Assembly (NCBI GenBank): GCA_024228115.1
Contig: JAAETT010000578.1
Span: 1-33,267, forward strand
Direction of reading: 5' to 3'
Length of the DNA stretch: 33,267 bases
Source: a bacterium
GTDB taxonomy: Bacteria > Myxococcota_A > UBA9160 > UBA6930
Part shown: one piece after another, positions 3,093-19,193 of the stretch
How the letters are laid out: the number at the start of each line of letters is the position of its first letter
Position numbering within the stretch: the first letter of the stretch is position 1
Translations under genes and position numbers: made by a program
Notes under the pieces: generated by a model
Seen by the model: only the letters and a program-made list of their open reading frames with translations
Told to the model about the DNA's origin: nothing
Database searches by the model: none

Positions 3093-3458
3093 TCAATTTG
3101 ACTGGTGCGCCTCCGAGAGCGTTGCTATGTGGGCAGCATTTGACTTGCTGCTACTGCGCCGTGCCTGGTGAACCCGGCAAAGCCTATGCGCCTTGGCTCG
3201 GCGCCACAGCGGCGCGTGATCCGCGAAACCCACGGCCCGTGCGGCCTTCCGCGCCGACACGCCCTCCAAGTAGAGCAGAAGCCCCAGTCGGTTCCGCTCC
3301 CCGAGGCGCGTGGAGGCCATGATGCGCAGGGCGGCCTCGCGGGCTTGGCGGTCGATGGAGTCCGCGGGAGGACACCAGGCACCGCTGATGCCGTCATCGC
3401 GAGCGTCGTGTTCCGTGCCAACGGAGCTGGCGACGGGCGGCGATTCGGCAGTAGGCAT
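3093..3458 (-). CDS. Small helix-turn-helix protein, sigma-region-4-like
   Basis: This 121-residue protein starts at ATG with GGAGGGGG a few bases upstream, a very strong ribosome site that makes the gene credible. Residues 39-95 are helical and contain LLLYLEGVSARKAARAVGFA followed by a basic segment (WRRAKAHRL), the pattern of an HTH resembling sigma-70 region 4 or a resolvase-type HTH. The N-terminal 35 residues look disordered and the C-terminal 25 are Ser/Ala/His-rich. It is probably a DNA-binding regulator of the element. It is divergent from the secreted-protein gene that begins at 3595, so the 136 bases between them should hold promoters for both. Confidence 0.55.
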   Translation of the reverse strand: MPTAESPPVASSVGTEHDARDDGISGAWCPPADSIDRQAREAALRIMASTRLGERNRLGLLLYLEGVSARKAARAVGFADHAPLWRRAKAHRLCRVHQARRSSSKSNAAHIATLSEAHQSN

Positions 3459-3594
3459 CGATCCCCCTCCAACCCATCAAGCTCGCCGCATCCCCCAACT
3501 GGGGTTACATGACGAGGCGACTTCCAGAGTATCATCCCGGGCGCGGCGGGCCCATCTCGCATCGATTCACGCCTCTGGCCCGAAGGAGAGAACC

Positions 3595-3933
3595 ATGAAG
3601 AGAGCGATCGTTTTCGCATTCATCCTGGTGCCGATGGCTGTGCCAGCCCGTTCCGGAGACTTTTGCGTCGACTTCTGGGCCAAGGCCGAACCGTTCCAGA
3701 GGGAACTGTTTGTCCGAAACTCCGACGACACAACGGTAGCCAATGTCGAAAAGCGCCTCGGCGGTGATGCCGACGTCTATGAGAAGTTCCGCGCCTGTTT
3801 TCGCGCGAGCACCATGGAATTCGTGAAGAAGCTCGACGCCGGTTGCGAGACAAAGATCAGCCCGGAGGGCCTTGTCGAGCTACTCAAAGATCGTGTAATG
3901 GGGTGCATGATCGGCATAGAAGCCAGCGACTAG
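3595..3933 (+). CDS. Small secreted protein, unknown
   Basis: This 112-residue protein starts at ATG with AAGGAGAG six bases upstream. The first 20 residues (MKRAIVFAFILVPMAVPARS) form a classic signal peptide with likely cleavage near ARS-GD. The mature part of about 90 residues is mostly helical and carries four cysteines (in DFCVD, RACFR, AGCET and MGCMI), which could form two disulfides in the periplasm. No family is recognised. It is a single-gene unit divergent from the HTH gene to its left. Gene-like composition, signal peptide and ribosome site together make it credible. Confidence 0.7.
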   Translation: MKRAIVFAFILVPMAVPARSGDFCVDFWAKAEPFQRELFVRNSDDTTVANVEKRLGGDADVYEKFRACFRASTMEFVKKLDAGCETKISPEGLVELLKDRVMGCMIGIEASD

Positions 3934-4079
3934 CCCGTGCCCCGAACCGGTGAATCCGGATCCGTCACGGCCGGCGACACCCGCCACCCATCGGTGCCCC
4001 TCGGGGACGCACCGCCCCGCCGAGGTCCGAGGGTGGTGATGTAGGGAGATCGCGCGCGCGAAAACCCCAACCCCCCCCA

Positions 4080-4271
4080 TCAACGCGTGCGCAGCTTTCC
4101 CGCTTTCTTTCGTCGCTCGTAGGCGTGGGCTTGCTGGCACTGGACAGAGCAGTAGGCCTCGTCGGTTCGACTTGGCTCAAACCACGTCTTGCACTGCCTG
4201 CACTCGTGCTCGTAGTAGGTCTCGATGACGGTGCGTTCGAGTTTTCGCCTCTTCGGCTTGATGCGTACCAC
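4080..4271 (-). CDS. Small zinc-ribbon protein
   Basis: This 63-residue basic protein contains the zinc-binding pattern HECRQCKTWF...YCSVQCQQAH, i.e. C-x2-C and C-x3-C separated by about 13 residues, flanked by Lys/Arg-rich ends. The layout resembles small treble-clef or FCS-like zinc fingers found in phage and island proteins. The start is GTG with AAGGA about 10 bases upstream. It is divergent from the small gene at 4397 that precedes the serine recombinase. A nucleic-acid-binding or adaptor role is inferred from the zinc ribbon and charge only. Confidence 0.6.
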   Translation of the reverse strand: MVRIKPKRRKLERTVIETYYEHECRQCKTWFEPSRTDEAYCSVQCQQAHAYERRKKAGKLRTR

Positions 4272-4396
4272 CCGTTCGTGTTCCTTGTTGTTACGCTTTT
4301 TCTCGTGAAACGCTTGACACGCCTACTCTCTTCACGGTAGTTGATGTGAGTGTCGCGCACCGCTTGAAGTCGCGCCCACGGTTGAGGCGAGAATCC

Positions 4397-4636
4397 ATGA
4401 CCGATTCGACTGTCCAGGTAGCCCCGGATGCTCAGGGGTCGATGAAGCCAACTCTATCCACACGCGCGACGGGCCTGCACCCGCTCCTCACGGAAGTCCA
4501 CCGGGAGAGCACGGAGCGTTTCAAAACCGTCTCGCCCGACGGCTTTAGCGAGCGATCTATCGCCGCGAGAATGCATGACCCACGAGGAATTGAATCCCCG
4601 GTTCAGAAACGGTCGATTCTGGAACGAATGAGGTGA
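4397..4636 (+). CDS. Small unknown protein preceding the serine recombinase
   Basis: This 79-residue hydrophilic protein ends four bases before the recombinase ATG, and the recombinase ribosome site (GAGGTGA) overlaps its last codons, which suggests translational coupling. The preferred start is ATG 4397 (MTDSTVQVAPDAQG); the ribosome site is weak (GAGGCGAGA). An in-frame start further upstream at 4346 is possible. The C-terminal part is rich in Arg, Ser and Glu (HRESTERFKTVSPDGFSE). No family is recognised. It may be an accessory factor to the recombinase, but only its position supports this. Confidence 0.45.
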   Translation: MTDSTVQVAPDAQGSMKPTLSTRATGLHPLLTEVHRESTERFKTVSPDGFSERSIAARMHDPRGIESPVQKRSILERMR

Positions 4637-4640
4637 GCTG

Positions 4641-5276
4641 ATGGCAAGGCGAGTAGCTCTCTACGCGCGAGTATCAACACGGGACCAGCATCCGGATGCC
4701 CAACTCGGTCGCCTTCGGACCTGGGCTGAACACGCGGACCTAGAGCCCGTCGAGTTCGTCGACAACGGCCAGAGTGGCCGCAAGGCTGAGCGCCCTGCCC
4801 TGCGCGAGCTTCTAAACGCCGTCAGGCGGCATGAGGTGGAGGTGGTTGCCACGGTGAAGCTCGACCGTCTGGCCCGGTCGACTCGTAACCTCTGCGAACT
4901 CGCTGACGTGTTCGAGGCTTCCAACGTGGACTTGGTCTGCCTGGATCAGGCTGTGGACACGCGCACGGCCGCAGGGAGGCTCCTCTACCGGGTCCTGGGG
5001 GCCTTCAGCGAGTTCGAGGCCGATCTCATCCGAGAGCGAACCCTCGACGGCCTAGCTGCCGCCCGCCGACGAGGCAAGCGCATCGGCCGACCACGAGCGC
5101 TCGGTTGCGAGGGAGTTGCCAGAGCGCAGCGAATGCATTCGAAGGGTCGGTCGTTGAGCCAGATTGCGGCGGTCCTGGGCGTGTCGAAGGCGACCATCCA
5201 CCGGGTCCTTCGCGGGTCACAAGGGGGCGAGAGGGGGAAGCGCCTAGAGTCGGACAGGAGATCCGCGATCGGGTGA
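4641..5276 (+). CDS. Serine recombinase (resolvase/invertase family)
   Basis: This 211-residue protein has the full small serine recombinase layout. The N-terminal catalytic domain has YARVSTRDQ with nucleophile Ser12, the conserved block KLDRLARSTRN, and FSEFEADLIRERT leading into the long E helix. RRGKRIGRP is the hinge, followed by a C-terminal HTH (about 150-195, SLSQIAAVLGVSKATIHRVL). Length matches resolvases and invertases (180-210). Such enzymes cut and rejoin DNA through a 5' phosphoserine bond at res or inversion sites. Its role here could be multimer resolution of a circular element or inversion of a segment; no inverted pair of crossover sites was found by eye. Confidence 0.93.
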   Translation: MARRVALYARVSTRDQHPDAQLGRLRTWAEHADLEPVEFVDNGQSGRKAERPALRELLNAVRRHEVEVVATVKLDRLARSTRNLCELADVFEASNVDLVCLDQAVDTRTAAGRLLYRVLGAFSEFEADLIRERTLDGLAAARRRGKRIGRPRALGCEGVARAQRMHSKGRSLSQIAAVLGVSKATIHRVLRGSQGGERGKRLESDRRSAIG

Positions 5277-5352
5277 GGTCGGCGGCAGCAGCCCGAGCGG
5301 CTCACCTGCCGACCCGGACACCGCGGGTTAGATTCTCCCTGACCGCGCCCTA

Positions 5353-5427
5353 CCGCCGGGGTAGCTCCTCGGCGGGACAATCCGGCCACCCAGGGCCGGT
5401 CGGGCGCGGCCTCAACTTCCCTGGGTG
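5353..5427 (+). promoter_or_regulatory. Structured leader with alternative hairpins upstream of the 5445 gene
   Basis: Three stem-loops can be drawn in the 168 bases between the recombinase and the next ATG. Stem 1 is CCGCCGGGG/CCTCGGCGG-type, 9 bp with loop TAGCT (5353-5375). Stem 2 is CCGGCC/GGCCGG with loop ACCCAG (5382-5399). Stem 3 pairs CACCCAGGG (5387-5395) with CCCTGGGTG (5419-5427), 9 perfect pairs ending eight bases before the ribosome site GGGAGGTG (5435-5442). Stems 2 and 3 share bases and exclude each other. This is the design of an attenuator or translational switch, or of a protein- or recombinase-binding site. No ligand or family is recognised. Confidence 0.4.
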
Positions 5428-5444
5428 CACCACTGGGAGGTGCG

Positions 5445-5747
5445 ATGGCCGAGAAGAAGCTCCGAAGGGTCGTCAAGAAAGCCCGGTCTGCGCCGGACGA
5501 TCCGGCAGGGGCCAGCGACAGCATTGCCGAATCCGCCCCGGTCAGCGCAGGGCGAGAAGCGCTGGCCGCTTCGACCGTGAGACTCCCGGTTTCCACGTGT
5601 CGGTCCACGAGCTGCTTCGTCCGGCTCGCTACTGGCCCAGGCCTGACGACGAGATCGGGGCGTGCGGCTCCCCCTTCGAAGCTCTCGGCCTCAAGCGGCG
5701 AGACGCCGCTCCTATCGGCCCGCCAACTTCGCCGGAGCCGGGTATGA
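5445..5747 (+). CDS. Unknown basic protein, ATGA-coupled to the next gene
   Basis: This 100-residue protein has a strong ribosome site (GGGAGGTG, two bases before ATG) and ends in TGA inside an ATGA overlap with the ATG of the following gene, a common sign of translational coupling. The N-terminus is Lys/Arg-rich (MAEKKLRRVVKKARSAPDD), followed by a Ser/Ala-rich low-complexity region. From about 5575 the alternative frame (shared with the downstream gene) reads more protein-like (VHELLRPARYWPRPDDEIG). A frameshift or sequencing error fusing the two genes is therefore a real alternative. No family is recognised. Confidence 0.45.
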   Translation: MAEKKLRRVVKKARSAPDDPAGASDSIAESAPVSAGREALAASTVRLPVSTCRSTSCFVRLATGPGLTTRSGRAAPPSKLSASSGETPLLSARQLRRSRV

Positions 5748-6922
5748 AGCGCCCGCCCGACGAGTGGAGGCGCCGACTTGAGGCGCGAATGGCAGAGCGA
5801 AAAGAGCGCCTTCGAAGAGCCAGCGAGAAACCTGGACAGCCGAGGGATGTCGACCCGGCCGAGAAGACCGGAGAGATCCAGGCCGAACCGAGCGACTTCG
5901 ACGACGCTGATATGAAGAAGCTCACCGGAATCGCCCACATGAGCGAACCGGCGGGTAGTGATCGGCCATCCGGGCCAGCTGCGGATGACGCCCCAGAGCC
6001 CGAGTTCGCACTTCCCCAAAGCCAGCGGGCTCGCGAGCTCACACAGGAAATGATCGAGCTGATCAAGCAAGTCCAGTTGAGCGAGCCGGCCGGAGGGGGC
6101 GACGATCGGCGACCTGCGCGGCCTGATTCGCTGGCCGATCCCCAGTTCGAGCAGGACCTGGACCTTCGGCGGGTGAGACAGGGAACCCCCGACTATCGCA
6201 TCATCTCCATGGTGGAAGCCGTCATCGGCCAGTACCGCGCGATGGCGGAATTGGCGCCCGACGAGCGGAAGCTCGTCGACATTGGACTCGACCTGCTCAG
6301 CCTGGCGACCTCGCTTGAGCGGGAAGATCCCGCGGCGTTCGAGAGGGCCGTCGATCGGCTGAGAGCTGCAAGAACTCGCGTGTCAGCACCTCTCAGGAGA
6401 GAAGTGCCCCGACGGGATCGACCCGCCGACTTCCAGCGGGCCCACGTGAAGCTCGAGCGTGGGCGCCGCAGTGAATCTCTCACGTTCCGGTTTCGCGGAA
6501 ACGTAGCCCAGCGTGGTGTTAGTGACCGTCCTCATTCGGAGAAGATGACCAAGCGCCTGGCGTTCATCGGGCAGCGCCTAATCTGGCTCGAGACGATTTC
6601 GACCTTAGGCCTGGATGAAGTCGTCGCTGGGTACGGCGATGCACGCGATCGAGAGAAGGAGGCACGGTGCAAGCTAGATAAAGGCAGCCCCATGCTGGAC
6701 GCGTTCTTGCTCGCGGCGGACCAACTCCTCCAGGAAGAGGCGAGGATCACTCGCAGCACCCTGTTTCGACGCACGATGCGGATCTCATGGAACGCTCAGG
6801 CACCAGATGACCCCTGCCGCAGCGACGCCACCATGACGAGCTGGGTCCAGAAAGCACGCGCGGTCGCCGACCAAAGCCCGGCCATCGTCCCGACCGCTAC
6901 GAAAGACCCAGAGACACGTTAA
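5744..6922 (+). CDS. Unknown 392-residue element protein
   Basis: The start is ATG 5744 with CCGGAG about six bases upstream, overlapping the previous stop. Residues 1-130 are charged and probably disordered or coiled (RRRLEARMAERKERLRRASE). Residues about 145-230 form a helical segment (DYRIISMVEAVIGQYRAMAE, then LVDIGLDLLSLATSLER). The C-terminal part has FRFRGNVAQRGV and a further helical bundle. No enzyme motif or membrane segment is seen. It is the last gene of the left unit: a hairpin directly follows its end and the next genes begin about 80 bases on. Its frame also stays open upstream to 5105, overlapping the structured leader. Confidence 0.6.
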   Translation: MKRPPDEWRRRLEARMAERKERLRRASEKPGQPRDVDPAEKTGEIQAEPSDFDDADMKKLTGIAHMSEPAGSDRPSGPAADDAPEPEFALPQSQRARELTQEMIELIKQVQLSEPAGGGDDRRPARPDSLADPQFEQDLDLRRVRQGTPDYRIISMVEAVIGQYRAMAELAPDERKLVDIGLDLLSLATSLEREDPAAFERAVDRLRAARTRVSAPLRREVPRRDRPADFQRAHVKLERGRRSESLTFRFRGNVAQRGVSDRPHSEKMTKRLAFIGQRLIWLETISTLGLDEVVAGYGDARDREKEARCKLDKGSPMLDAFLLAADQLLQEEARITRSTLFRRTMRISWNAQAPDDPCRSDATMTSWVQKARAVADQSPAIVPTATKDPETR

Positions 6923-6947
6923 ACCCCCTCTAGATTTCTGGGTTTAA
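6919..6947 (+). terminator. Terminator-like hairpin after the 392-residue gene
   Basis: TTAAACCC (6919-6926) and GGGTTTAA (6940-6947) are perfect inverted repeats with a 13-base loop. The stem overlaps the stop codon and could be extended by CAC/GTG beyond one mismatch. There is no long T run downstream (GTGCTGTTTC), so it may be a weak terminator or an operator for the operon that starts at 6999. Confidence 0.45.
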
Positions 6948-6998
6948 GGTGTGCTGTTTCGTGGACCGTGTCTGGAGTTTCGGCTGTCATGAACTCCC

Positions 6999-7178
6999 AT
7001 GAACGTCGTTCTCGGCACGATCCCGGCTACTGCGAAGGCTTGCGGGATCCACCCGCGCCATCTCCGGAAGGCCGTCAGAGATAACCAAGTCCCCGCCTTC
7101 AGGGTCGGGGCGTGGCTTCGGGTCCGCGAAGAGGATGTCCAACGCTGGCTCGACACGCTCAGGTATGTCCCGCCATGA
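6999..7178 (+). CDS. Excisionase-like MerR/HTH_17-type DNA-binding protein
   Basis: This 59-residue protein has the layout of small excisionase/AlpA-type winged HTH proteins. TIPATAKACGIHPRHLRKAV is the HTH, and VPAFRVGAWLRVREEDVQRWL is the wing plus the conserved final helix (compare the family pattern of R-x-G-x-x-x-R followed by D-x-x-x-W). It is the first gene of the right-hand operon containing the replication and integrase genes. Excisionases bend att-site DNA to direct integrase to excision, or act as operon activators; either would suit its place. The ribosome site is not obvious. Confidence 0.7.
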   Translation: MNVVLGTIPATAKACGIHPRHLRKAVRDNQVPAFRVGAWLRVREEDVQRWLDTLRYVPP

Positions 7179-7224
7179 CTGAAGGCCTTGGCTGACGGTC
7201 GGCCGGGCCCCTGAACGAACGCGA

Positions 7225-7253
7225 CCGGCCGGGGATTGACAAGCCCCGGTCGG
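7225..7253 (+). promoter_or_regulatory. GC-rich hairpin before the DnaB-N-like gene
   Basis: CCGGCCGGGG (7225-7234) pairs with CCCCGGTCGG (7244-7253) with one G-T wobble and a nine-base loop, seven bases upstream of the ATG at 7261. If transcribed it could hide or set translation of the downstream gene or act as a processing site. No T run follows. Confidence 0.35.
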
Positions 7254-7260
7254 CCACAAC

Positions 7261-7863
7261 ATGGAGTCCTTGAGTTTTGCGAACTTCGAACTCGATCGGA
7301 GGGTACCCCCTCCACCAGCTGCGTACAGCCCCTCCCCCTTCGGGCTCATTTGGGCCGCCGCACCCCCGACCTGGCGAGTACCCCCTGACCAGATGGCAGC
7401 TTCGCCGCGGCGGCCGGGGCCGGCAAAGATGAGCGCGGTCTTCCATGAGGCTGCTTTCTTCGACCCCGGCCCGGATCTCAAGGACCTGGGCCTCGAGACG
7501 CTCATCCTCGGAGCGTGCCTCATGGGCGACATGCGGTGGCCCGGTACCGAACTGTTTTGGAGCCCTGCCAATGCACACATCGCCGCCTACCAGGCCACAT
7601 CCGAGGGCGAACCGAACTTCGCCGAGATCCGCAATTCGGCGCCAGAATGGATGAGACCGCACGTCACGCGTTCGCTGATCGACGCCGTCGACTCGTACGC
7701 AGGACCGTGGATGCTCGACCGCTACCTGGAGATTCTGCGTTCGCTCGCTTACCTGCGACGGGTCTTCTCTACGGCAGACGACATGGCCGCCGCTCTTCGA
7801 AAATCCCGCGCTGATGATGTTCTCGTTGGTGCAAGCGAGTGGCTACGAGAGGTGATCGGGTGA
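7261..7863 (+). CDS. DnaB-helicase N-terminal-domain-like protein
   Basis: From about residue 75 this protein resembles the N-terminal domain of replicative helicase DnaB. LETLILGACLMGDMRWPG and FWSPANAHIAAY are like the first helices, and LDRYLEILRSLAYLRRVF through VLVGASEWLREV is like the family's YL-x-x-L-x-x-x-A-x-x-R-R-L helix and final helix. No ATPase domain follows, so it is a stand-alone domain, which could bind host DnaB, a primase or the neighbouring DUF3987 protein. The first 55 residues are Pro-rich and may not be translated; ATG codons at 7393 and 7429 are alternative starts. Its stop overlaps the next start as GTGA. Confidence 0.6.
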   Translation: MESLSFANFELDRRVPPPPAAYSPSPFGLIWAAAPPTWRVPPDQMAASPRRPGPAKMSAVFHEAAFFDPGPDLKDLGLETLILGACLMGDMRWPGTELFWSPANAHIAAYQATSEGEPNFAEIRNSAPEWMRPHVTRSLIDAVDSYAGPWMLDRYLEILRSLAYLRRVFSTADDMAAALRKSRADDVLVGASEWLREVIG

Positions 7864-9476
7864 ACGATCCGAGAAATCCCGCCCTGGAGTTGGTCCGGGA
7901 AGAACGCGAGAGCAGCTGGCCAGATCCTGAACCGCTGGAGGCTACGCCGCCCGAGCTTCCCGCCTTTCCGACCGACGCCATCCCGCACTGGCTCTCGGAC
8001 TTCGTCACTGAGGAGGCAAGAGCCACGCAGACACCCCCAGATCTCGCGGCACTGCTCGCGCTTGCTGCGGTGGCCACGGGTGTGCAGGGGAAGGCCGTGG
8101 TTGCGCCAAAGAAGGGAGACCCCGGCTACACCGAGCCAATGAACATCTTCGTCGTCGTGGCGCTCCCACCTGCCTCGCGCAAGAGCGCGGTCTTCCGGGA
8201 CGCGACTCAGCCGATCATCGATGTCGAGTGCCAAATGCGAGACACCGCTCGGGACCTGGTTGCCCGGGCAGAGGCCCGCCTGCAGATCCTGCGAGACGCG
8301 ATCGACGCCAAGCAACGAAACGCGAAGAATCCCAAGACCACCACGGCGCGCGCGGATGAGCTCGCCAGCGAGATCGCGGAGCTCACGGTCCAGCTCGCAC
8401 GCGACGAGGAGGCCTGCCCGAGAATGCCCCGCCTCCTCGTTTCCGACATCACACCCCAGGCACTCGGCATGCGCCTCGCTGAACATGGCGTCTTGACCCT
8501 CGCAACTGCAGAAGGGTCAGAGGTCTTCGAGACCGCACGGGGCCGCTACTCCGCCGACGCGAGACCCAACTTCGACGTGCTCAAGAAAGCCCACGCCGGG
8601 GATTGGATTGCGGTCGATCGGGTCAAGGGGGAGCCACTTCGGTGCGATCGGCCCGCGCTGACGTTAGCGCTGGCGATCCAGCCCGCGGTACTACGGGATG
8701 CGCGAGCAGTTGAGGTGTTTCGGGGGGAGGGCCTACTGGGTCGGTTCCTCTTCGCGTTGCCGCAGACGCTCGTGGGATCGCGAACCTGGGACCAAGCCGG
8801 CGTTCGCCCGCGAGTGCGCGACCTCTACGACCAGATGATCCGGAAGCTCATTGAAATCCCTCGACCGGCCGAGCCGTGGGTTCTCACTCTCGACGACCAG
8901 GCGGAAGCGGCACTTCGCAACTTCCACGACCGAATCGAATGCCAGCTATCAGAAAACGCGGCGCTTGGCTGGATGACGGATTGGGCCGGCAAGCTACCCG
9001 GTCTCACGGTGCGGATCGCCGGCCTGCTGCACTGCGTCGAGTGGCTGGACTCTGTGGACCAGATGTTCATCGTCCCGATCGATCGAACGACCGCCACGCA
9101 GGCGATTCAAATCGCCGAGTACGCCCTGGCCCACGCGCAGGCTGCCTTGCTCGAGGCTCCGGAGGACAAGCTCCTCGCGGACGCCCGCTACGTGTGGGGC
9201 CGCATCCTTCTCAAGCACCGAGAGGAGGGAAACTCGCTGCCAAGCACCCGGGAGATCCACCGTTGGGCAGGCGGTGGTGGAAAGGATCGTCGGATCCCGA
9301 CCGCAACCGACACCGAACGGGTTCTCCACGAACTCGAGATCCGCGGATATGCGCAACGACACGACCGGAAGAAGGGCGGCCCGTTGTGGGAGATGAACCC
9401 CAAAGCACTGCGGGCTTCGGCACCTGTCAGCACTGTCAGCGTGTCAGCAGGGGGTACAGATGGCTCGGAGAACTGA
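7860..9476 (+). CDS. DUF3987 (YfjI-type) element replication protein
   Basis: This 538-residue protein starts at GTG 7860, sharing GTGA with the previous stop and with GAGAGGTGA as ribosome site. After an N-terminal linker, FPTDAIPHWLSDFV then TPPDLAALLALAAVA and the P-loop-like VALPPASRKSA (about residues 106-116) match DUF3987/YfjI proteins, which occur next to primases in plasmids, phages and integrative islands. A central coiled segment (about 130-175) precedes a helicase-like core. The C-terminal 80 residues form a probable winged helix (LPSTREIHRWAG to ERVLHELEIRGYAQR). It probably powers or primes replication of the element. Its 3' end contains the first copies of the 9-bp repeat array. 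Confidence 0.85.
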   Translation: MNDPRNPALELVREERESSWPDPEPLEATPPELPAFPTDAIPHWLSDFVTEEARATQTPPDLAALLALAAVATGVQGKAVVAPKKGDPGYTEPMNIFVVVALPPASRKSAVFRDATQPIIDVECQMRDTARDLVARAEARLQILRDAIDAKQRNAKNPKTTTARADELASEIAELTVQLARDEEACPRMPRLLVSDITPQALGMRLAEHGVLTLATAEGSEVFETARGRYSADARPNFDVLKKAHAGDWIAVDRVKGEPLRCDRPALTLALAIQPAVLRDARAVEVFRGEGLLGRFLFALPQTLVGSRTWDQAGVRPRVRDLYDQMIRKLIEIPRPAEPWVLTLDDQAEAALRNFHDRIECQLSENAALGWMTDWAGKLPGLTVRIAGLLHCVEWLDSVDQMFIVPIDRTTATQAIQIAEYALAHAQAALLEAPEDKLLADARYVWGRILLKHREEGNSLPSTREIHRWAGGGGKDRRIPTATDTERVLHELEIRGYAQRHDRKKGGPLWEMNPKALRASAPVSTVSVSAGGTDGSEN

Positions 9477-9626
9477 AACGCTACGAGAGATCAACAGAGA
9501 AGAGAAGATTACTCAGACCCCCCTTATGGAGACTGCTGACAGTGCTGACAACGCGGACACTTTGGGGCCGAAGATCGCCTTGGATCGGCACCTCAAAGCG
9601 ACTGTCAGCACTCCGATGCTGACAGT
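9424..9626. repeat. Iteron-like array of CTGTCAGCA, candidate replication origin
   Basis: The 9-bp motif CTGTCAGCA occurs directly at 9424-9432, with one-mismatch copies at 9433-9441 and 9441-9449, and again at 9602-9610. Its complement TGCTGACAG occurs at 9534-9542, at 9543-9551 (one mismatch) and at 9617-9625. The last pair forms a perfect 10-bp inverted repeat (9601-9610 with 9617-9626). Tandem spacing is 8-9 bp. Between the opposed clusters lies a more AT-containing purine-rich stretch (about 9450-9530). Direct and inverted iterons beside a replication gene are typical of initiator-controlled origins. Binding by the HTH protein encoded next door is an alternative. Confidence 0.6.
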
Positions 9627-9774
9627 TCCAAGAGGGCAACGCGGCCTCTCCATCACCGATCTCGCCGACCTCTACCACGACTTCGGAGCGGCAAGCGACT
9701 CTGCATCGGGAGATCGCGCGGGCCGGAAGAAACGACCCCACTCTCGGCGGTTGGCGGGGAGAGGCGACCGCTGA
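9460..9774 (+). CDS. Small unknown ORF across the repeat array
   Basis: This 104-codon frame starts at ATG 9460 (AGGGGG just upstream) inside the 3' end of the DUF3987 gene, and its TGA shares a base with the ATG of the next gene, fitting the overlapping operon. The product is hydrophilic. Its middle contains repeated TADSADNADT and ATVST stretches that are simply the translated 9-bp repeats, and the C-terminus is very basic (GRKKRPHSRRL). No family is recognised. It may be a real small DNA-binding protein, or origin DNA that happens to be open. Confidence 0.4.
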   Translation: MARRTETLREINREEKITQTPLMETADSADNADTLGPKIALDRHLKATVSTPMLTVPRGQRGLSITDLADLYHDFGAASDSASGDRAGRKKRPHSRRLAGRGDR

Positions 9775-10091
9775 TGCTCGACGGGGCGGCCCAGCACCCC
9801 GACCTCGCGGAACTCCGCGAGCTGGCCGAGCGCTACGGGCTCTCGGTCGAAACCCTTGTCAGCCGTCTCGCCCTCAGCCTCGACGAGGTTGCCAGAGCGG
9901 TCGGCACCTCGAAACGCACCGCCGAGGGCTGGCTCGCCCGTGGCGAGTTCCCCAGCGCCTGGAAGGACGGTGCCGTAGTCCGGATCCCGACCCTCGACCT
10001 CCTCCGCTTCCAAGACCGCAAGCGCCTCACGCAGCGCCCCCGCAACCCCAGCAACCTCCGTGAGAAGGCTCGAGATGCACTTTTTCGGTGA
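9774..10091 (+). CDS. HTH (excisionase/helix-turn-helix) DNA-binding protein
   Basis: This 105-residue protein has a central HTH of excisionase/MerR type (about 38-80: LSLDEVARAVGTSKRTAEGWLARGEFP, then AVVRIPTLDLLRFQ as wing and final helix). The N-terminal 35 residues are a Leu-rich helix (LAELRELAERYGLSVETLV) and the C-terminus is basic. It overlaps the preceding stop by one base (TGATG) and its end lies 49 bases before the integrase start, so it is co-transcribed with the integrase. It may be the recombination directionality factor, an operon regulator, or the protein that binds the adjacent 9-bp repeats. Confidence 0.7.
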   Translation: MLDGAAQHPDLAELRELAERYGLSVETLVSRLALSLDEVARAVGTSKRTAEGWLARGEFPSAWKDGAVVRIPTLDLLRFQDRKRLTQRPRNPSNLREKARDALFR

Positions 10092-10140
10092 TGACAACCG
10101 CGATCGCGTTATGGTGCCCGCGAGCAGGGAGGCCGGTGGG

Positions 10141-11421
10141 ATGGCAAAGGCATGGCTCGCTCGGGGCAAGCGGGGAGAGCTGATCATTCATGCGAAGGGG
10201 CGCATCGGCGATCAGGTGCTCCGCCGGCAGAAGCGCGTCCCCGACGACGATCCCGAGCTCGGCGATGAGATGATCCGCCAGCTCAACCGTGACTTCCTGA
10301 TGAGCAACTTCTCCTGGCTGACCCGGGCAGCCGAGCGCGCCGACATCGGACCCATTCCCCGTAGGCGCCGCGGACCGGTCTTCTCTGAGTGGGCCGACCG
10401 GTGGCTCGAGGACCTGAAGGGTGAGATCGAAGAGAGCACCAGGCGAAACTACAAGAGCCATGTTGAGGACCTGAAGCGCCGCATGGGCAAGGAAACCCTG
10501 GCTTCGATCAGCCTGGGCGCAGTGAAGGTGTTGCGAAAGCAGCTCAGTAGTTCGCTCGCCGCCCGGACCGTCCAGTCGCGGCTCGGAGTCTTGCGACTCA
10601 TCCTGATCGATGCCCGGGAGGACGGCCTGATCGACTCGACGCCCTTCGACTCCCCCAGCCGCACCCGGCGGACCAAGAAAGGCACGGCCGCGACGTCGAC
10701 CCGTCGGATCACCTTCCAGCCCTACAGCTTCGAAGAACTCGCGGCGCTCGCAAAGGTGCTTCGCCAGCCGCGAACGCCTGACGAGCGGCGGTTCTTCCCG
10801 CTGACCGAAGCGCTCCTCTACACGGGCCTGCGGTGGGCCGAGCCCGCTGCATGGGTGTGGCCCGACCTCTCGATCGCGGGCGGCAGGATCGAAGTACTTC
10901 GCACGCTCCCCAAGCACGGCGTGATCCGGCTAGAGGAGTTCACCTCGCTCGAGAAGGTGAATGAGGCGTTCCCACCGAAGACCGGCACGTCCTGGGGCAT
11001 CACGGTTCGGCGGCCGCTGCGGGAGCTGTTGCTTCGACAGCGGCAGGTCAGCTACCTGGGGCGAGAGAACGGCTGGGTCTTCCCGAACAGCCGCAAGGGG
11101 CATCTTCACTATCCGAACTGGTTGCGCCGCGGCTGGGAGCCGGCGCTGCGCCGAGCTGGTGTTTCTCCGCGAGCTGGTGACGCGCAGAAGTCGCTACGCC
11201 GGACCTACGTGGTGAGTTCACTCGTCTGCGGCCGGAACCCGAAGGAGATCTCGGCCGAGGTCGGGCACACCACGAGTCGCATGGTGCTCGGCGTCTATGA
11301 CGCCTTCCTGGATGCCTCGGGGTGGCCGGCGGACCATGAGCGGCGAAAGCTGGCGGCGTTCTACGGATGGCCCGATCCTACGGTCCTGGCCCGTGAAGAC
11401 GCCGAGGAGCAGCAAGGATGA
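10141..11421 (+). CDS. int: Tyrosine integrase
   Basis: The ATG at 10141 is preferred (GGGAGG nine bases upstream), giving 426 residues; in-frame starts at 10075 or 10111 would extend it into the preceding gene. The N-terminus is a small arm/AP2-like segment (about 1-80). SAM-like core binding follows (about 83-180: FSEWADRWLEDLKGEIEEST). The catalytic domain has LYTGLRWAEP (Arg231), KSLRRT (Arg353), GHTTSR (His376) and VYDAF with nucleophile Tyr386. The first position of the usual H-x-x-R box is Lys350 rather than His. It catalyses integration and excision at the tRNA-Gly anticodon region. It lies in the element's last operon, and its stop overlaps the next gene as ATGA. Confidence 0.93.
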   Translation: MAKAWLARGKRGELIIHAKGRIGDQVLRRQKRVPDDDPELGDEMIRQLNRDFLMSNFSWLTRAAERADIGPIPRRRRGPVFSEWADRWLEDLKGEIEESTRRNYKSHVEDLKRRMGKETLASISLGAVKVLRKQLSSSLAARTVQSRLGVLRLILIDAREDGLIDSTPFDSPSRTRRTKKGTAATSTRRITFQPYSFEELAALAKVLRQPRTPDERRFFPLTEALLYTGLRWAEPAAWVWPDLSIAGGRIEVLRTLPKHGVIRLEEFTSLEKVNEAFPPKTGTSWGITVRRPLRELLLRQRQVSYLGRENGWVFPNSRKGHLHYPNWLRRGWEPALRRAGVSPRAGDAQKSLRRTYVVSSLVCGRNPKEISAEVGHTTSRMVLGVYDAFLDASGWPADHERRKLAAFYGWPDPTVLAREDAEEQQG

Positions 11422-12200
11422 GTGACAAGCAGCCGGAGTGCTTTGTGATCATGCCGATCTCGAACCCGAACCCGGAAAAGTACAAGCCGGATCACTTCCA
11501 ACGGATCTACGAAGACGTGTTCGTTCCAGCGTGCGAACAGGCGGAGTTCCATCCAACGCTCGCAAGCCGTTCCCCTGAAACGAACATCATTCACCTCGAC
11601 ATCCTTCGCCGTCTTGTGGAGGCGCCGATGGCCCTCTGCGACCTATCCGCGTTGAATCCGAATGTCTTCTTCGAACTGGGAATTCGGCAAGCATTCGACA
11701 AGCCGGTCGTACTCGTCCAAGAGGAAGGGACTCCTCAGATCTTCGACACTGGGGTGATCCGCACTCTGGACTACCGACCGAACCTAGACGTACGAGAGGT
11801 GCCCGAGGATCTCGCGAAGATCGCGGAAGCCCTGACCGAAACCTTCAATTCGCCGGCCGACTCCGTGAATTCGCTAGTGCGGCTGTTGGAACTCTTGCCC
11901 GCTCGATTGGGCTCGCCAGACGACGAGGAAGGCAAGCGGTTCGAGCTGATTCTCAATGAACTCCAGGCGATCCGTAGCGACTTGGCCAAATCACGCCTGC
12001 GAAGGGCGGCTGAGCTGGGTCCCCCGTTGGGGCTGGGCGGCCTCAGTCGAAGTACACCCAACTTGATGGACCTCCTCGGAAACCAGCAATCCCTCAGCTC
12101 GCACGACTTTGGTGGCAAGGAGGACCTGGCAGCCGGGATCTCCGCCCTCAAGCGTATCACGAGTGATGGTGCCGAGGACTCAAGTGACGACGGAAGCTAA
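11418..12200 (+). CDS. Nucleoside 2-deoxyribosyltransferase/TIR-like fold protein, possible defence effector
   Basis: This 260-residue protein has an N-terminal Rossmann-like domain (about 1-140). CFVIMPISNP, HLDILRRLVEAPMALCDLSA (Asp75), NPNVFFELGIRQAF (Glu86) and KPVVLVQ match the nucleoside 2-deoxyribosyltransferase superfamily. There the Glu in the N-x-x-x-E-L-G block is the catalytic nucleophile position, and relatives act as nucleotide- or NAD-cleaving immune effectors. The C-terminal 120 residues are helical, then Ser/Gly/Asp-rich, with no known domain. The start ATG overlaps the integrase stop (ATGA) with AGGAG upstream. It is the last element gene before the attachment site, a usual cargo position. 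Enzymatic activity is inferred, not shown. Confidence 0.65.
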   Translation: MSDKQPECFVIMPISNPNPEKYKPDHFQRIYEDVFVPACEQAEFHPTLASRSPETNIIHLDILRRLVEAPMALCDLSALNPNVFFELGIRQAFDKPVVLVQEEGTPQIFDTGVIRTLDYRPNLDVREVPEDLAKIAEALTETFNSPADSVNSLVRLLELLPARLGSPDDEEGKRFELILNELQAIRSDLAKSRLRRAAELGPPLGLGGLSRSTPNLMDLLGNQQSLSSHDFGGKEDLAAGISALKRITSDGAEDSSDDGS

Positions 12201-12258
12201 CCGGCTGGCTGGCCAAGCAGGTTCTCGATTCGCGCCGGACCTCCAGCCACACTGGGTC

Positions 12259-12288
12259 AGGTCGGGCATAGGTCGGGCAAGGTCGGGC
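12259..12288. repeat. Right-end phased AGGTCGGGC repeats (putative arm sites)
   Basis: Three direct copies of AGGTCGGGC start at 12259, 12270 and 12280, i.e. spaced 11 and 10 bp, one helical turn. The segment 12259-12279 is identical to 121-141 at the left end. The placement about 100 bp inside both ends of a tyrosine-integrase element fits arm-type binding sites. Confidence 0.65.
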
Positions 12289-12315
12289 TGGGCTGTTGTT
12301 AGTCTGAACCAGCCC
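12285..12315. terminator. Hairpin between the last element gene and tRNA-Gly
   Basis: GGGCTGG (12285-12291) and CCAGCCC (12309-12315) are perfect inverted repeats around a 17-base loop (12292-12308). The hairpin lies between two convergent transcription units and could stop the element operon before it runs into the tRNA. There is no strong T run, so termination is uncertain. Confidence 0.35.
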
Positions 12316-12354
12316 ATCCAGACACGCGTAACCTGCCGGAACCAGGGAGAAAAG

Positions 12355-12430
12355 TGGAGCGCGAGACCGGATTCGAACCGGCGACATTCACGTTGGCAAC
12401 GTGATGCTCTACCAACTGAGCTACTCGCGC
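12355..12430 (-). tRNA. tRNA-Gly (anticodon GCC)
   Basis: The minus strand gives a full 76-base cloverleaf. The acceptor is GCGCGAG/CTCGCGC with discriminator T and encoded CCA. The D arm is GCTC-AGTTGGTA-GAGC, the anticodon arm TCACG-TTGCCAA-CGTGA (GCC, reading GGC and GGT glycine codons), and the T arm GCCGG-TTCGAAT-CCGGT. All stems pair. It serves as the integration site of the element to its left and remains intact after integration. Confidence 0.97.
12383..12399. repeat. Right attachment-site core within tRNA-Gly
   Basis: This segment is identical to bases 1-17. It covers the anticodon loop (TTGCCAA on the tRNA strand), the 3' anticodon stem and the variable loop. The left side of it (12355-12382) is tRNA 3' sequence supplied by the element; the right side (12400-12430) is the original chromosomal 5' half. 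The crossover therefore probably falls in or near the symmetric anticodon stem-loop. Confidence 0.8.
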
Positions 12431-14523: not shown

Positions 14524-15178
14524 GGTAACGACGATAATACGAAAGGACCCGCCGAACGTATTCCCGCGTCTCGGCATAGGGCGGAACGCCTCGGTGGCGG
14601 TCTACCGCCGTCGGGCCGGCATTGTAGGCCGCCAGGGTGTGGGTCCAGCTGCCGTAGCGGTCGTGAAGGCGGGCCAGATAGCGCACCCCGCCGTCGATGT
14701 TGTCTTCGGCCTGAAACGGCTGGAGCACGCCCAGCATCTTCGCCGTGTCTGGCATCAGCTGCATCAGGCCCATGGCCCCTTTGGGTGAGACGGCCTGGGG
14801 ATCGAAGGCCGATTCTGCGTGGATCACCGCCTTCACCAGCGCGGGGGGAATCCCCTGCTCCAGGGAATGGGTCCGGATCACGCGGTCGAAGGTTCGCACC
14901 GGTCGGCGGCTCGCCTTCTTGGTCCTGGGCGCTGCCTTGTAGCTATTGGGCAGCTCGAAGCTGCGATAGCGGGCATCCGTCGGATCGACATTCGTGAAGT
15001 GGACGACGCCGCGGGCGTCGACATACCGGTAGAGCCCCTGGGCCAGGGCGCCCGTCGTGCCGATGCAGAGGGCGATCAAGACGAGGGCGAACGGGGCCAT
15101 CGCACCGAGCCGGCACGCGACACGATTTTTCCCCGGGGCGTTGTTCCCCATCCGGTTCGAGAGATAGACTCGCTCCAC
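14504..15178 (-). CDS. Lytic transglycosylase with DUF4124 domain
   Basis: This 224-residue protein cleaves the MurNAc-GlcNAc bond of peptidoglycan to form 1,6-anhydroMurNAc. The GTG start at 15178 has AGGAG seven bases upstream. A basic N-terminus precedes a hydrophobic signal (about 27-46, APFALVLIALCIGTTGALAQ). DUF4124 follows (LYRYVDARGVVHFTNV). The SLT domain (about 105-205) contains VIHAESAFDPQAVSPKGAMG with the catalytic Glu of the ES motif, GLMQLMP, and LAAYNAGP. It acts in the periplasm. It is divergent from nadB with only 33 bases between the starts, so the two promoters must overlap each other or the coding regions. Confidence 0.92.
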   Translation of the reverse strand: MERVYLSNRMGNNAPGKNRVACRLGAMAPFALVLIALCIGTTGALAQGLYRYVDARGVVHFTNVDPTDARYRSFELPNSYKAAPRTKKASRRPVRTFDRVIRTHSLEQGIPPALVKAVIHAESAFDPQAVSPKGAMGLMQLMPDTAKMLGVLQPFQAEDNIDGGVRYLARLHDRYGSWTHTLAAYNAGPTAVDRHRGVPPYAETREYVRRVLSYYRRYHGDFSR

Positions 15179-15211
15179 CGTCTCTCCTATCGGAGCACCC
15201 GAGGCCCATTC

Positions 15212-16834
15212 TTGAGCCCCCCGGCGAGCGGATCCAGACCCAACGATGCTGACGTTCTCGTCCTAGGAAGCGGGATCGCAGGGTTGTTCTATGCCCTGCG
15301 GGTGGCCGCCCATGCTCGTGTGGTGCTCGTCACCAAAAAGCAGGCGGCCCAGGCAGCGACGAATTTTGCCCAGGGGGGCATCGCGGCGGTCGTTTCCGGC
15401 GACGACACGGTGGAGGACCACATCCGGGACACCCTGGAGGCGGGGGCCGGGCTCTGCCGCGAGGAAATCGTCCGCTTCGTCATCGAGCGAGGAGCGGATG
15501 CGATCGCCTCCCTTCTCGAACTCGGCGTGGAATTCGACCGGGATGCCAAGGGTGCCTTCGCCCTGGGGCGCGAGGGCGGGCACGGCCGGCGCCGGGTGCT
15601 CCACCATCGGGACGCGACGGGCCGAGAGATCGAGCGTGCCCTGTTGGCCCGCGCCCGCGCCCATCCGAACATCACCCTGCTCGAAGACTTCATGGCGGTG
15701 GATCTGCTGACCTCTCGCCGTGCCGGCCTGCCCGGGCCGAACCGGGCGCTCGGTGCCTATGTGCTCGATTCCCACCGGGGCACGGTCCACCGCTTTCGCG
15801 CCCGCGCCACCTTCCTGGCGACCGGCGGAGCGGGCAAGGTCTACCTGTATACGAGCAACCCGGACATCGCCTCCGGGGATGGAATCGCCATGGCGTATCG
15901 CGCCGGCGCAACCGTCGCGAACATGGAGTTCTTCCAGTTCCACCCCACCTGTCTGTTCCACTCCCAAGCAGGATCCTTCCTGATCAGCGAAGCGGTCCGC
16001 GGTGAGGGCGGCGTGTTGCGAAATGCCGCCGGCGAAGCGTTCATGGAGCCCTACCACGCGATGGCCGATCTCGCGCCGCGAGACGTCGTGGCCCGCGCCA
16101 TCGATACCGAACTGAAACGCACCGGCGAGGATTCGGTCTACCTCGACATCACCCACCGCGACGCCAGTTGGCTGCGCGAGCGCTTCCCCACCATTCATCA
16201 GCGTTGCCTGGAGCTCGGCATCGATCTCACCCGGGATCCCATTCCGGTCGTGCCGGCCGCCCACTACTGCTGCGGCGGTGTCGTGACGAACCCACGCGGA
16301 GAGACCGATGTGGTCAATCTCTTCGCGGCCGGCGAAGTGACGTGCACGGGCCTGCACGGCGCCAACCGGCTTGCCTCGAACTCACTCCTCGAAGGCGTGG
16401 TCTTCGCCGAGGCCGCCGCCAACGAAACCCTCGCCCGCCTGCCGGACCTGCCGGCCATCACCAGCCCGATCGCCGGCTGGTCCGAGGGTGCCGCCACCGA
16501 GAGCTCCGAGGCGGTCGTGATCACCCAGAACTGGGATGAGATCCGTCGCTTCATGTGGAACTACGTCGGCATCGTACGAACGGACAAGCGCCTGGCCCGG
16601 GCGCAGCGGCGGATCGTCCTGCTGCGAGACGAGATCACCGAGTACTACTGGAACTTCCGCATCACCCCACCGCTCCTGGAGCTGCGAAACCTCGCCACCG
16701 TCGCGAAACTCGTCATTTCCTGCGCCAGCCAGCGCAAGGAAAGCCGCGGCCTCCACTACACCCTCGACCATCCCAACCGCGGCGACGACGAACTGGCCGA
16801 AGACACGCTCATCCGTCATCCCGACGCGCAGTAG
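15212..16834 (+). CDS. nadB: L-aspartate oxidase
   Basis: This FAD enzyme oxidises L-aspartate to iminoaspartate, the first step of de novo NAD synthesis (before NadA and NadC, which are not in the window). The TTG at 15212 is preferred, with GAGG seven bases upstream, giving 540 residues, the usual NadB length. The FAD-binding motif is VLGSGIAGL near the N-terminus. FAQGGIAAV, HRDATGREIE, the substrate segment FHPTCL, and GEVTCTGLHGANRLASNSLL are all typical of NadB rather than succinate dehydrogenase flavoprotein. The C-terminal helical domain is complete. It is the only plus-strand backbone gene here and is followed six bases later by the 99-bp palindrome. Confidence 0.95.
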   Translation: MSPPASGSRPNDADVLVLGSGIAGLFYALRVAAHARVVLVTKKQAAQAATNFAQGGIAAVVSGDDTVEDHIRDTLEAGAGLCREEIVRFVIERGADAIASLLELGVEFDRDAKGAFALGREGGHGRRRVLHHRDATGREIERALLARARAHPNITLLEDFMAVDLLTSRRAGLPGPNRALGAYVLDSHRGTVHRFRARATFLATGGAGKVYLYTSNPDIASGDGIAMAYRAGATVANMEFFQFHPTCLFHSQAGSFLISEAVRGEGGVLRNAAGEAFMEPYHAMADLAPRDVVARAIDTELKRTGEDSVYLDITHRDASWLRERFPTIHQRCLELGIDLTRDPIPVVPAAHYCCGGVVTNPRGETDVVNLFAAGEVTCTGLHGANRLASNSLLEGVVFAEAAANETLARLPDLPAITSPIAGWSEGAATESSEAVVITQNWDEIRRFMWNYVGIVRTDKRLARAQRRIVLLRDEITEYYWNFRITPPLLELRNLATVAKLVISCASQRKESRGLHYTLDHPNRGDDELAEDTLIRHPDAQ

Positions 16835-16840
16835 TCTCGG

Positions 16841-16939
16841 AACGCAACAGCGGGGACGGGGGTTACAATTGACTTGTTTCGGACGGGCTCTGCCCGTCCG
16901 AAACAAGTCAATTGTAAACCCCGTCCCCGCTGTTGCGTT
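16841..16939. repeat. 99-bp near-perfect palindrome (REP/BIME-like)
   Basis: Two 48-base arms (16841-16888 and 16892-16939) are inverted copies with one mismatch, around the loop TCT. The arms contain GCGGGGACGGGG, ACAATTGACTTG and CGGACGGGC. The palindrome fills the whole gap between convergent nadB (ends 16834) and the PilZ gene (stop begins 16940). As RNA either strand would form one very long hairpin, so it could end transcription in both directions. The size, symmetry and GGGGACGGGG core resemble elements spread by REP-associated tyrosine transposases, one of which lies at the right edge of this window. Confidence 0.85.
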
Positions 16940-18334
16940 TCAGTTCTGCGGGATGAGTACGCCCAGGTCCACCAAGGCGTTGACGGCTGCCAGGATGTCG
17001 GCGTCGGGCTCGGGGATGACGTCGATCAATCGGCGCAGGGTGAAGCCAGCTTCGGCCAGGTCGAGTACCGCCTGCTCGATCTTCGATCCGCCTGAGTCGG
17101 AGCGGCTGGCATCCCAGTTCACGGCAAATGTCGTCGTCAATTCCACCGGGACACCATCGACCCGTGCCCGCTCATCCATCTGGCGGACGGCATCGAGGAT
17201 CGCCGCTTCCAGTGATTGGGGTGCGTCCTCTTCGTCCAGGCCATCGACGTTGGAGAAGAACTCGAAGCGCCCGTCTTCCCATGCCAGCAAGCGCGAGAGC
17301 GCCTTGGTCCCGCAAAGGGCCCCGAGGCGTGCATAGCGCAGGAGTCCGCCCTCGAAGGCGATGACGCCCTCCTCCGCCCCGTGGGTCGCGATCAGGGTGC
17401 CTTTCGGTGAAGTGCTGCCGAGCATCTGGACGAGGTTCGGCATGCCCAGCTCTTCGATCTGGCCGCTGATGCCGGCCTCCTGGCGTTCGGCCGCATTGGC
17501 GCGAACATCTTCGACGAAATCGGCGATGACATCGGCCTCGCTGTCGCGGGATTCGAATTGCACGCCTACCGCCGCGACCGTTCCATCCGCCTCGATGTGC
17601 CTCGACACGCGACCCGTCACCTCGATGTGGTCGCTGGAATCCGGGCTCTGAAGGCGCAGCTTGACCTGCTTGCCGAGAGGGATCTCACTTGCGTCCGCTG
17701 AAATCAGCACACCGCTTTCGCTGAGATCACGGGTGTGCCCATCCAGATGGAAATCAGTCGTCGCCAGGCGCGCGGGAACGGAGGCACGGGATCGCGGGCC
17801 CTTTCGCCTTTCGTCCTCCTCCGCGACGGCGAGGTCTTCGTCGCGTAGTTCGGTGCCCGTCTCCTTCAACACCTGCTCGAGTTCACCAGGATCGATCTCG
17901 AGTTCGTCGGTTTCGGCGGCCGAGTCGAATTCGGGATGGGTGTATTCGGCTTCGACCTCGAGTTCCGGCTCGGCCTGAAGATCCGTAGCCGCGTCGAATC
18001 CGACGAGATCTTCGGAAGTCTCGGGCGTCTCGAAGAGCGAGGACTCCTCCGGCTCGGCAGGCGATCCGTCCAGGTGCTCGTTCAGCCGGGCGCGCAGCTC
18101 CGACGCCTGCTCCAGGAATTGCACCGCGACCGCGCCGGGCAGCTGATGAACGACCTCGGCTTCCAGCACGAACGTCTGTCCGCTGAAAAGGAGCGAAAGC
18201 TCTACCTCGACCTGCTCGCGCAATTCGAGGGCGTGCTCCGTGTGGACGAACGCCCCCCCAGCGCTCATGTTGCGCTCGTACTCCTCGCGGAACTCTTCGA
18301 GTTCCTCGAAAACGAGACGGAGCCTCTGGGTCAT
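16940..18334 (-). CDS. Double-PilZ and DUF4388 (PATAN) signalling protein
   Basis: With the ATG at 18334 (GAGGTG ten bases upstream) this protein has 464 residues. Residues 1-90 are a divergent PilZ-like domain (NMSAGGAFVHTEHALE, then VELSLLFSGQTFVLEAEVV). An acidic linker spans about 90-175. A second PilZ domain (about 178-275) has the c-di-GMP motif parts RASVPAR and DLSESG. DUF4388 (about 290-390) begins ISGQIEELGMPNLVQMLG, and a C-terminal helical region follows. Such proteins are common in Myxococcota and relatives and link c-di-GMP to motility or surface behaviour. The first PilZ domain lacks a clear RxxxR motif and may not bind the ligand. It is the last gene of the minus-strand run. 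Confidence 0.85.
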   Translation of the reverse strand: MTQRLRLVFEELEEFREEYERNMSAGGAFVHTEHALELREQVEVELSLLFSGQTFVLEAEVVHQLPGAVAVQFLEQASELRARLNEHLDGSPAEPEESSLFETPETSEDLVGFDAATDLQAEPELEVEAEYTHPEFDSAAETDELEIDPGELEQVLKETGTELRDEDLAVAEEDERRKGPRSRASVPARLATTDFHLDGHTRDLSESGVLISADASEIPLGKQVKLRLQSPDSSDHIEVTGRVSRHIEADGTVAAVGVQFESRDSEADVIADFVEDVRANAAERQEAGISGQIEELGMPNLVQMLGSTSPKGTLIATHGAEEGVIAFEGGLLRYARLGALCGTKALSRLLAWEDGRFEFFSNVDGLDEEDAPQSLEAAILDAVRQMDERARVDGVPVELTTTFAVNWDASRSDSGGSKIEQAVLDLAEAGFTLRRLIDVIPEPDADILAAVNALVDLGVLIPQN

Positions 18335-18458
18335 CGGGGCGGCACACCTCGACGGCGCCCGATCGCGATTCACAGTCGGGCGGCGTCTCGGGCCGTATCG
18401 GCGGGACGAGTGCACCGCATGACCGACGCGACCCCTTTTCCCCGAGGGGACAAGCCGC

Positions 18459-19193
18459 TCAGGCCTGTTCGACCAATGCCCGAAAGAGTCGCGCCTGGAC
18501 GGAGTCGAGCTCGAGCTCCGGATGCCACTGCACCGCCTGCAGCCAGGCTGCGCCCTCGAGTTCCAGAGCCTCCACGGTTCCATCCGCCGCGTAGGCGGCG
18601 GGCCTGAGACCTTCACCCAGGTGCCGAACGGCCTGATGGTGCCAGGAGGCAACCCGGTCCAAGGCTTCGCACCCGAAGAGTGTCGAGAGCGCCGATCCAG
18701 CCTCCAGCCGGACAGGATGATCGGTGGCCTCGATCTGGCTCTTCCGATGGGCGACCTCCTCACCCATCTCGTCGGGGAGGTGTGAGTGGATGTCTCCCCC
18801 GAGAGCGACGTTCAGCACCTGCATCCCGCGGCAGATTGCGAGCGTCGGAAGCGAGCGGGCCAGTGCGGATCGAATCAGCGTCAGCTCGAAATGGTCCCGC
18901 TCTTCACACATCGAATACATGTGGCCATGGGTCTCCGTTCCAAGAGTCTCCGGATGGAGATCCCCGCCACCGGTCATCACGAGACCATCCAGACGATCGA
19001 GAAGCGATGCGGGTGCGGGAGCGCCCGGCACGAGGAGCACTGGCTCACCACCCGCCCGGCGGATCCCATCGACGTAGGCATCCGGCAAGGTGAACCGGGA
19101 GCGCCCTTCTCGCTCGCGGTGGTAGGAGGTAACCCCGATCCAGGGAGAACCCGAGGCGGGTCTCGTCCGCCCGCCGTTCGCAGCTCCGGCCAC
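18459..19193 (-). CDS. PuuD-type class I glutamine amidotransferase (gamma-glutamyl-GABA hydrolase family)
   Basis: This hydrolase of the peptidase C26 family has the catalytic Cys in LAICRGMQVLN and the catalytic His/Glu in VQWHPE, plus VMTGGGDLHP as the oxyanion segment. Family members release GABA or other amines from gamma-glutamyl conjugates. The GTG at 19193 lies just after the stop of the glutamine-synthetase-like gene; a TTG at 19232 would add 13 residues and overlap that gene. Length (244 residues) is normal. Direct coupling to a GS-like ligase argues for a shared gamma-glutamylation pathway such as polyamine or GABA use, though the substrate cannot be read from sequence. The 124 bases downstream hold no gene. 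Confidence 0.85.
   Translation of the reverse strand: MAGAANGGRTRPASGSPWIGVTSYHREREGRSRFTLPDAYVDGIRRAGGEPVLLVPGAPAPASLLDRLDGLVMTGGGDLHPETLGTETHGHMYSMCEERDHFELTLIRSALARSLPTLAICRGMQVLNVALGGDIHSHLPDEMGEEVAHRKSQIEATDHPVRLEAGSALSTLFGCEALDRVASWHHQAVRHLGEGLRPAAYAADGTVEALELEGAAWLQAVQWHPELELDSVQARLFRALVEQA

Follow-up and report, generated by a model that had tools for sequence, protein, structure and literature searches.

The palindrome downstream of nadB

The window, by which we mean the whole stretch of 33,267 nucleotides analyzed, carries a 99-bp palindrome in a convergent gap between nadB and a gene encoding a PilZ protein (Table 1). As described in the initial annotation and borne out by an inverted-repeat search and an alignment of the arms, it consists of two 48-nt arms (16841-16888 and 16892-16939) that are 98% complementary and separated by 3 nt. 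The sole arm mismatch opposes a G at 16862 to an A at 16918. The motifs GGGGACGGGG and ACAATTGACTTG are also present inside the palindrome as that annotation stated. Its fit between the two stop codons, in contrast, is exact on one side only: the palindrome edge is flush with the stop codon of the downstream gene (16940-16942), but a 6-base spacer separates it from the stop codon of nadB (16832-16834). The start of the nadB open reading frame is uncertain, since the family match begins only at residue 142-143.

Table 1. Features of the window discussed in the text
Feature	Position	Strand	Basis
nadB, L-aspartate oxidase	14819..16834	+	TIGR00551, 596.7 bits (cut-off 452.75)
Whole palindromic dimer	16841..16939	.	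Inverted repeat, fold, 39 other complete dimers in the same genome
Left outer repeat, AACGCAACAGC	16841..16851	+	Consensus in the same genome: AAGTCAAC + variable bases + GC
Left conserved core, consensus GGGGACGGGGTTTACAATTGACTT	16852..16875	+	Contains the sole mismatch (16862)
Self-complementary tip, TCT loop at 16889-16891	16876..16904	.	Tip alignment across dimers of the same genome
Right conserved core, inverted copy	16905..16928	-	0 mismatches to core pattern
Right outer repeat, plus-strand GCTGTTGCGTT	16929..16939	-	Sequence and comparison with copies of the same genome
PilZ + DUF4388 protein	16940..18763	-	Domain match; stop codon touches palindrome
DNA-invertase-like serine recombinase	4641-5276		
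DUF3987/helicase	7839-9476		
Excisionase-like HTH	9774-10091		
Tyrosine integrase	10060-11421		

No other close inverted repeat of the window approaches the palindrome in length, the runner-up within 400 bases measuring 27 nt (81%). The predicted RNA fold of positions 16830-16950 reached -103.6 kcal/mol, compared to -37.2 (sd 4.1) for shuffled sequences (z -16.3), and 0 of 200 shuffles were as good. A chance palindrome was thus ruled out by the length and complementarity of the arms together with the shuffle test. A GC hairpin followed by a T-run, as in an intrinsic terminator, was not found: the T-run after the stem is absent on both strands, and a terminator scan of 16600-17200 returned no match. 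Scanning the window against Rfam at gathering scores yielded tRNA only, and the palindrome belongs to no known RNA family in that scan.

Elsewhere in the window, positions 1-12430 represent a probable integrative element adjoining tRNA-Gly(gcc) (12355-12430). The first 17 bases of the contig recur inside this tRNA gene, starting at 12383, and may mark an att site.

Copies of the palindrome and a linked Y1 transposase

The genome to which the window belongs (G000, 6.4 Mb in 700 contigs) holds many copies of the palindrome, as had been anticipated for a mobile element. The 99-mer gave 81 alignments, a figure in which each palindrome scores on either strand. For the arm motif there were 92 matches, compared to 0 for the reversed control pattern. 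In the 51 stretches from which copies were extracted, we counted 40 complete dimers; a further 12 arms were single or truncated, comprising 9 cut by contig ends, 1 at the stop codon of a transposase gene and 2 true single arms. Because 9 of the 12 partial arms end at contig ends, the true number of dimers is probably higher. Many contigs of G000 and of the sister genome G003 end within palindromes (L063, L072, L083 and L170-L189, for example), indicating that the assemblies are broken there and that copy numbers are lower bounds.

All copies follow a constant layout, namely, AAGTCAAC followed by 2 to 4 variable bases and GC, the core, a variable self-complementary tip, and the inverted copy. 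Measured between the 24-nt cores, the tips are 9 to 31 nt long, and 37 of the 40 are distinct. Watson-Crick pairs make up 392/403 of the pairs in the tips, 952/960 in the cores and 306/312 in the outer arms. The 25 arm mismatches (3 G-T, 6 A-C, and 16 other) give no sign of RNA wobble tolerance. Pairing extended at least 4 bases past the 12-nt outer arm in 10 of the 40 dimers, compared to 2.4% with swapped partners, which we tentatively read as partly the end of the element and partly copying or pre-existing hairpins.

The initial annotation noted that the palindrome fills a convergent gap. Such a position applies to 19 of the 36 placed dimers, compared to 15 of 62 other gaps, and none is inside a gene; the count relies on a home-made gene finder, is limited to dimers flanked on each side by 150 bases, includes background gaps that were sometimes counted repeatedly, and excludes the "mono" rows, which contain false motif matches. 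Placement in convergent gaps may reflect tolerance rather than function.

A Y1 transposase gene lying outside the window (contig C203, 11252-12235) sits between two copies. Its open reading frame (L051:949-1935, 328 aa) is flanked by a single arm (L051:927-961), which provides the stop codon, and by an upstream dimer that starts at 1929 and runs into the contig end. The first arm of this dimer is a direct copy of the single arm (83% identical). The protein contains the NHVH and YVCRNP motifs and matches Y1_Tnp with 40.6 bits (cut-off 23); its score against REP_Tyr_transpos (NF047646) is 51.3 bits, below the cut-off of 80. A C-terminal HTH_23 match (residues 276-302, E 0.011) is under the Pfam cut-off, as are the HTH_23 (1.7e-4) and Bac_DnaA_C (0.0039) matches of a paralogue. 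A sequence search for a relative of solved structure gave no credible match, one antibody matching at E 0.026. Relatives at E 1e-40 or better were found in 19 of 90 genomes across the class, and at about 21 of 27 of their loci an inverted repeat carrying GGG(G)NC lies close to the gene (exact GGGGAC in 13; GGGAC, GGGGTC or GGGGCC, read by eye from alignments, in about 8 more).

The paralogue (L103 on contig C653 of G000; L097 on contig C140 of the sister genome G002) is a second Y1 transposase with its own 36-39 nt inverted repeats, which contain GCGGGGACGTTCTTTCCGCTGTTTCC. Its palindrome family has 50 motif matches in G000 and 94 in G002, and in several pairs of arms both members share one departure, for example on contigs C148 and C193 of G002.

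The orthologous transposase of G003 is 68% identical to that of G000, and a CBS-domain gene adjoins it in both genomes. Its flanks are 48-nt inverted repeats, 88% complementary, that differ in sequence and carry GGGGCCGGAGTTAAGAATTCACTT. With a pattern covering both versions, 36 of 36 matches in G003 started with GGGGCCGG or GGGGTCGG, compared to GGGGACGG in the G000 and G002 matches listed. At sites common to G003 and G000/G002, the elements in G003 have the G003 version, some of these alignments being one-sided on the G003 contig. As far as sequence comparison goes, this shows that the transposase and its repeat diverged together between G000 and G003. G002 seems to have lost its transposase; its contig C153 runs from the end of the CBS-domain gene (only about 22 bases of it) through one arm to the next gene. 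The exact G000/G002 core also occurs in a dimer of a record titled Alphaproteobacteria bacterium OFTM70 (L109), possibly through transfer, mislabelling or contamination.

Neither the repeat nor the orthologous transposase was found in G001 and G004, where the best transposase matches were 46% and 42% identical in G004 and none at E 1e-20 in G001. A single-copy, family-wide nadB terminator, which the initial annotation opposed to a mobile element, is ruled out by the copy number, by the empty terminator scan, by the absence of the element from 11 of the 14 family genomes searched, and by the nadB/PilZ junction of G004, which has the same genes and a 33-nt gap with no element. A second G004 copy of this locus (L123, contig C374) has tandem repeats after the nadB 3' end, possibly an assembly artifact.

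Changes at orthologous sites in a sister genome

In G002, the nadB/PilZ gap contains a collapsed element, AAACTCAACAGC-GGGGAC-GCTGTTGAGTTT. Its left outer repeat reads AACTCAACAGC, and the right arm carries the matching change. Between the window and G002, the outer arms show a single G:C to T:A pair change, present on both sides.

We then compared six orthologous dimers of G000 and G002 (248 pairs). Thirteen changes were two-sided, all of them Watson-Crick, and 6 were one-sided, the counts at outer positions including register shifts from symmetric 1-nt indels. A hand calculation for independent arms at the divergence of the flanks (288/2383, 12.1%) predicts about 1 two-sided complementary change and about 53 one-sided ones. 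The two-sided changes comprise 7 transitions and 6 transversions. A seventh orthologous pair in which both genomes have a dimer (L062/L154) was excluded, L154 being degraded at one end. The pair L074/L157 shows three two-sided changes and no one-sided change, and neither the L157 core TCTACGATT nor the two-sided change TTGGCTT of L151 occurs in any other copy among those listed. At L003/L151 and L087/L133, the tips differ wholesale between the orthologues. The outer bases are genome specific, CGAGC being common in G002 and CCAGC in G000.

Other sites differ by the loss of an arm. The difference between a dimer and a single arm corresponds to a deletion between direct repeats, TTGACTT at L015/L138 and L088/L131 and GTAAA at L018/L216. 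From 20 G000 sites queried, 14 were aligned in G002 and classed by eye: G002 has 4 single arms (L013, L018, L073 and L080), 2 end remnants (L092 and L019), 2 doubtful cases (L065 and L093), and 6 sites without a recognizable element (L006, L011, L012, L014, L066 and L077). At L093 (contig C153 of G000), the outer arms consist of flank sequence, GGCGTTGACTTC, paired with an inverted copy of it; in the G002 counterpart (L206), which lacks a core, a similar sequence occurs once, a pattern that would arise had the palindrome duplicated its own flank. Conversely, 7 G002 sites were aligned with both flanks and likewise read by eye; at these, G000 has 5 end remnants and 2 decayed single arms, an eighth site (L147) being aligned on one side only. 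Since all 7 keep at least a remnant in G000, recent movement is unsupported. Faster decay in G002 after loss of its transposase was considered and dropped, because G000 is likewise decayed at 7 of 7 G002 sites. No clean target duplication was found at the insertion sites.

Origin of the palindromes and relation to known repeats

These observations establish the copy number, the common anatomy, a transposase gene between two copies and, in a sister species, a transposase and a repeat that have changed in step. We consider it probable that the palindrome is a non-autonomous repeat, made of two inverted copies of the terminal repeat that belongs to a TIRYT-kind Y1/HUH transposase, and that its hairpin rewrites itself. 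A transposase that cuts single strands very probably spread the palindrome. Single-stranded recognition and cutting are known for IS200/IS605 and TnpA-REP enzymes in the available text of PMC8266576, and by analogy the transposase may recognize and cut the single-stranded arm or hairpin. Spread would have been into gaps beside stop codons, where harm is presumably small. Arm-to-arm copying by a template switch is described in the accessible part of PMC8794818. A polymerase switching template in the hairpin would copy a mutation of one arm to the other arm or erase it, and both arms would thereby change together; the two-sided changes support such a step. Slippage between the short direct repeats TTGACTT and GTAAA would shorten dimers, leaving single arms or end remnants. 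If the hairpin has an RNA role, double-stranded at the 3' ends of two mRNAs, that role would simply follow from where the element sits.

A serious, if partial, rival is replacement by other copies. Whole-copy overwriting, by ectopic conversion or by re-insertion at the same site, would make the arms change together with no arm serving as template, and we regard it as possible but not as the likelier course. It fits the wholesale tip differences at L003/L151 and L087/L133 better than correction in place does. The presence of the G003 version at shared sites is in agreement with it, and the genome-specific outer bases hint at exchange between copies. However, the two-sided changes of L157 and L151 have no listed copy as a source, and at the window's own site the outer arms differ by the paired change described above. 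We also propose, tentatively, a self-editing family, in which hairpin-templated copying would keep the copies of about 100 bp palindromic and the transposase would overwrite residents with its current terminal repeat. If so, dozens of old fixed insertions would shift with the transposase across sister species with no new insertion sites.

Selection on RNA structure, for a bidirectional terminator or an mRNA 3' stabilizer, would turn the two-sided changes into ordinary compensatory mutations. Such selection is consistent with the very stable fold and with the convergent placement obtained with our crude gene finder. We nevertheless find it improbable. The ratio of 13 two-sided to 6 one-sided changes, the six transversions and the lack of a G-T bias favor DNA-level arm copying or replacement by palindromic copies over RNA selection. 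Moreover, T-run and terminator matches are lacking, the tips of both arms alter length and sequence simultaneously, and the sister genome holds merely single arms or remnants at several sites.

The proposed self-rewriting terminal-repeat dimer bears on the open issue of what maintains REP-like elements in bacterial genomes and keeps them uniform. The genus is a natural experiment, with old common insertions, three sister genomes, and two transposase-repeat pairs in one genome. Paired arms record both two-sided and one-sided changes, so that arm correction and transposase-repeat coevolution become directly testable. The palindrome family also helps account for broken assemblies.

The initial annotation assigned the palindrome to a REP/BIME-type element. 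This stands for the general REP/BIME/REPIN type, the element being dispersed and repeated, but not for classical membership, given the lack of GTAG, the subthreshold transposase score and the resemblance to TIRYT. A classical GTAG family moved by a canonical RAYT is very improbable: inverted doublets forming hairpins, mostly intergenic, and a vertically inherited Y1 transposase recall what the available text of PMC3116915 describes, but GTAG occurs neither beside a short stem-loop, which already contradicts this reading, nor in the conserved G000 arm and its consensus, the transposase falls below the REP_Tyr_transpos cut-off with weak C-terminal HTH matches, and the repeats are long, GGGG-led terminal repeats. 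Like the REPINs of Bertels and Rainey (2011), as portrayed in that text, the present elements are inverted doublets folding into one long hairpin. Compensatory changes in REPIN hairpins were already noted there; unlike those, the changes reported here are found at orthologous sites, many of them are transversions, and entire tips are altered symmetrically.

CGTC-tagged REPs (PMC3733652) are also intergenic palindromes containing CGTC; they have stems of 8-9 bp, loops of 4-5 nt and a CGTC tag that stays unpaired, and they lack a linked transposase. In our family, by contrast, CGTC lies within the long paired core, and a transposase is linked. Quasipalindrome correction by template switching, in which one arm is rewritten from the other with two-sided changes arising at once, has been reported in RNA genes and in coding sequence (e.g. 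PMC8794818, PMC8604942). Among the matches listed from one literature library, none joined template switching with REP-like elements, and those obtained with five exact motif strings look unrelated by title.

The match is of the TIRYT/TIRtron kind, not GTAG REP/RAYT. In the available parts of Di Nocera et al. 2013 (PMC3733652), a Y1/HUH transposase lies between terminal repeats with a GGGG-led motif. The Y1 gene is likewise flanked by long terminal repeats here (48 nt in G003; an arm and a dimer cut by the contig end in G000), and the repeats are also dispersed as singles and inverted dimers. The published motif GGGGWSAS differs from GGGGACGG at position 7, and the published transposases (subclass 2.1 in the accessible text of PMC6006769) have a C-terminal HTH. 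Near-perfect palindromes of about 80-100 bp, copy-specific tips, and paired arms followed between sister species set the present family apart. The present family offers unusually clear evidence, drawn from sequence comparison, for a concerted evolution of the two arms.
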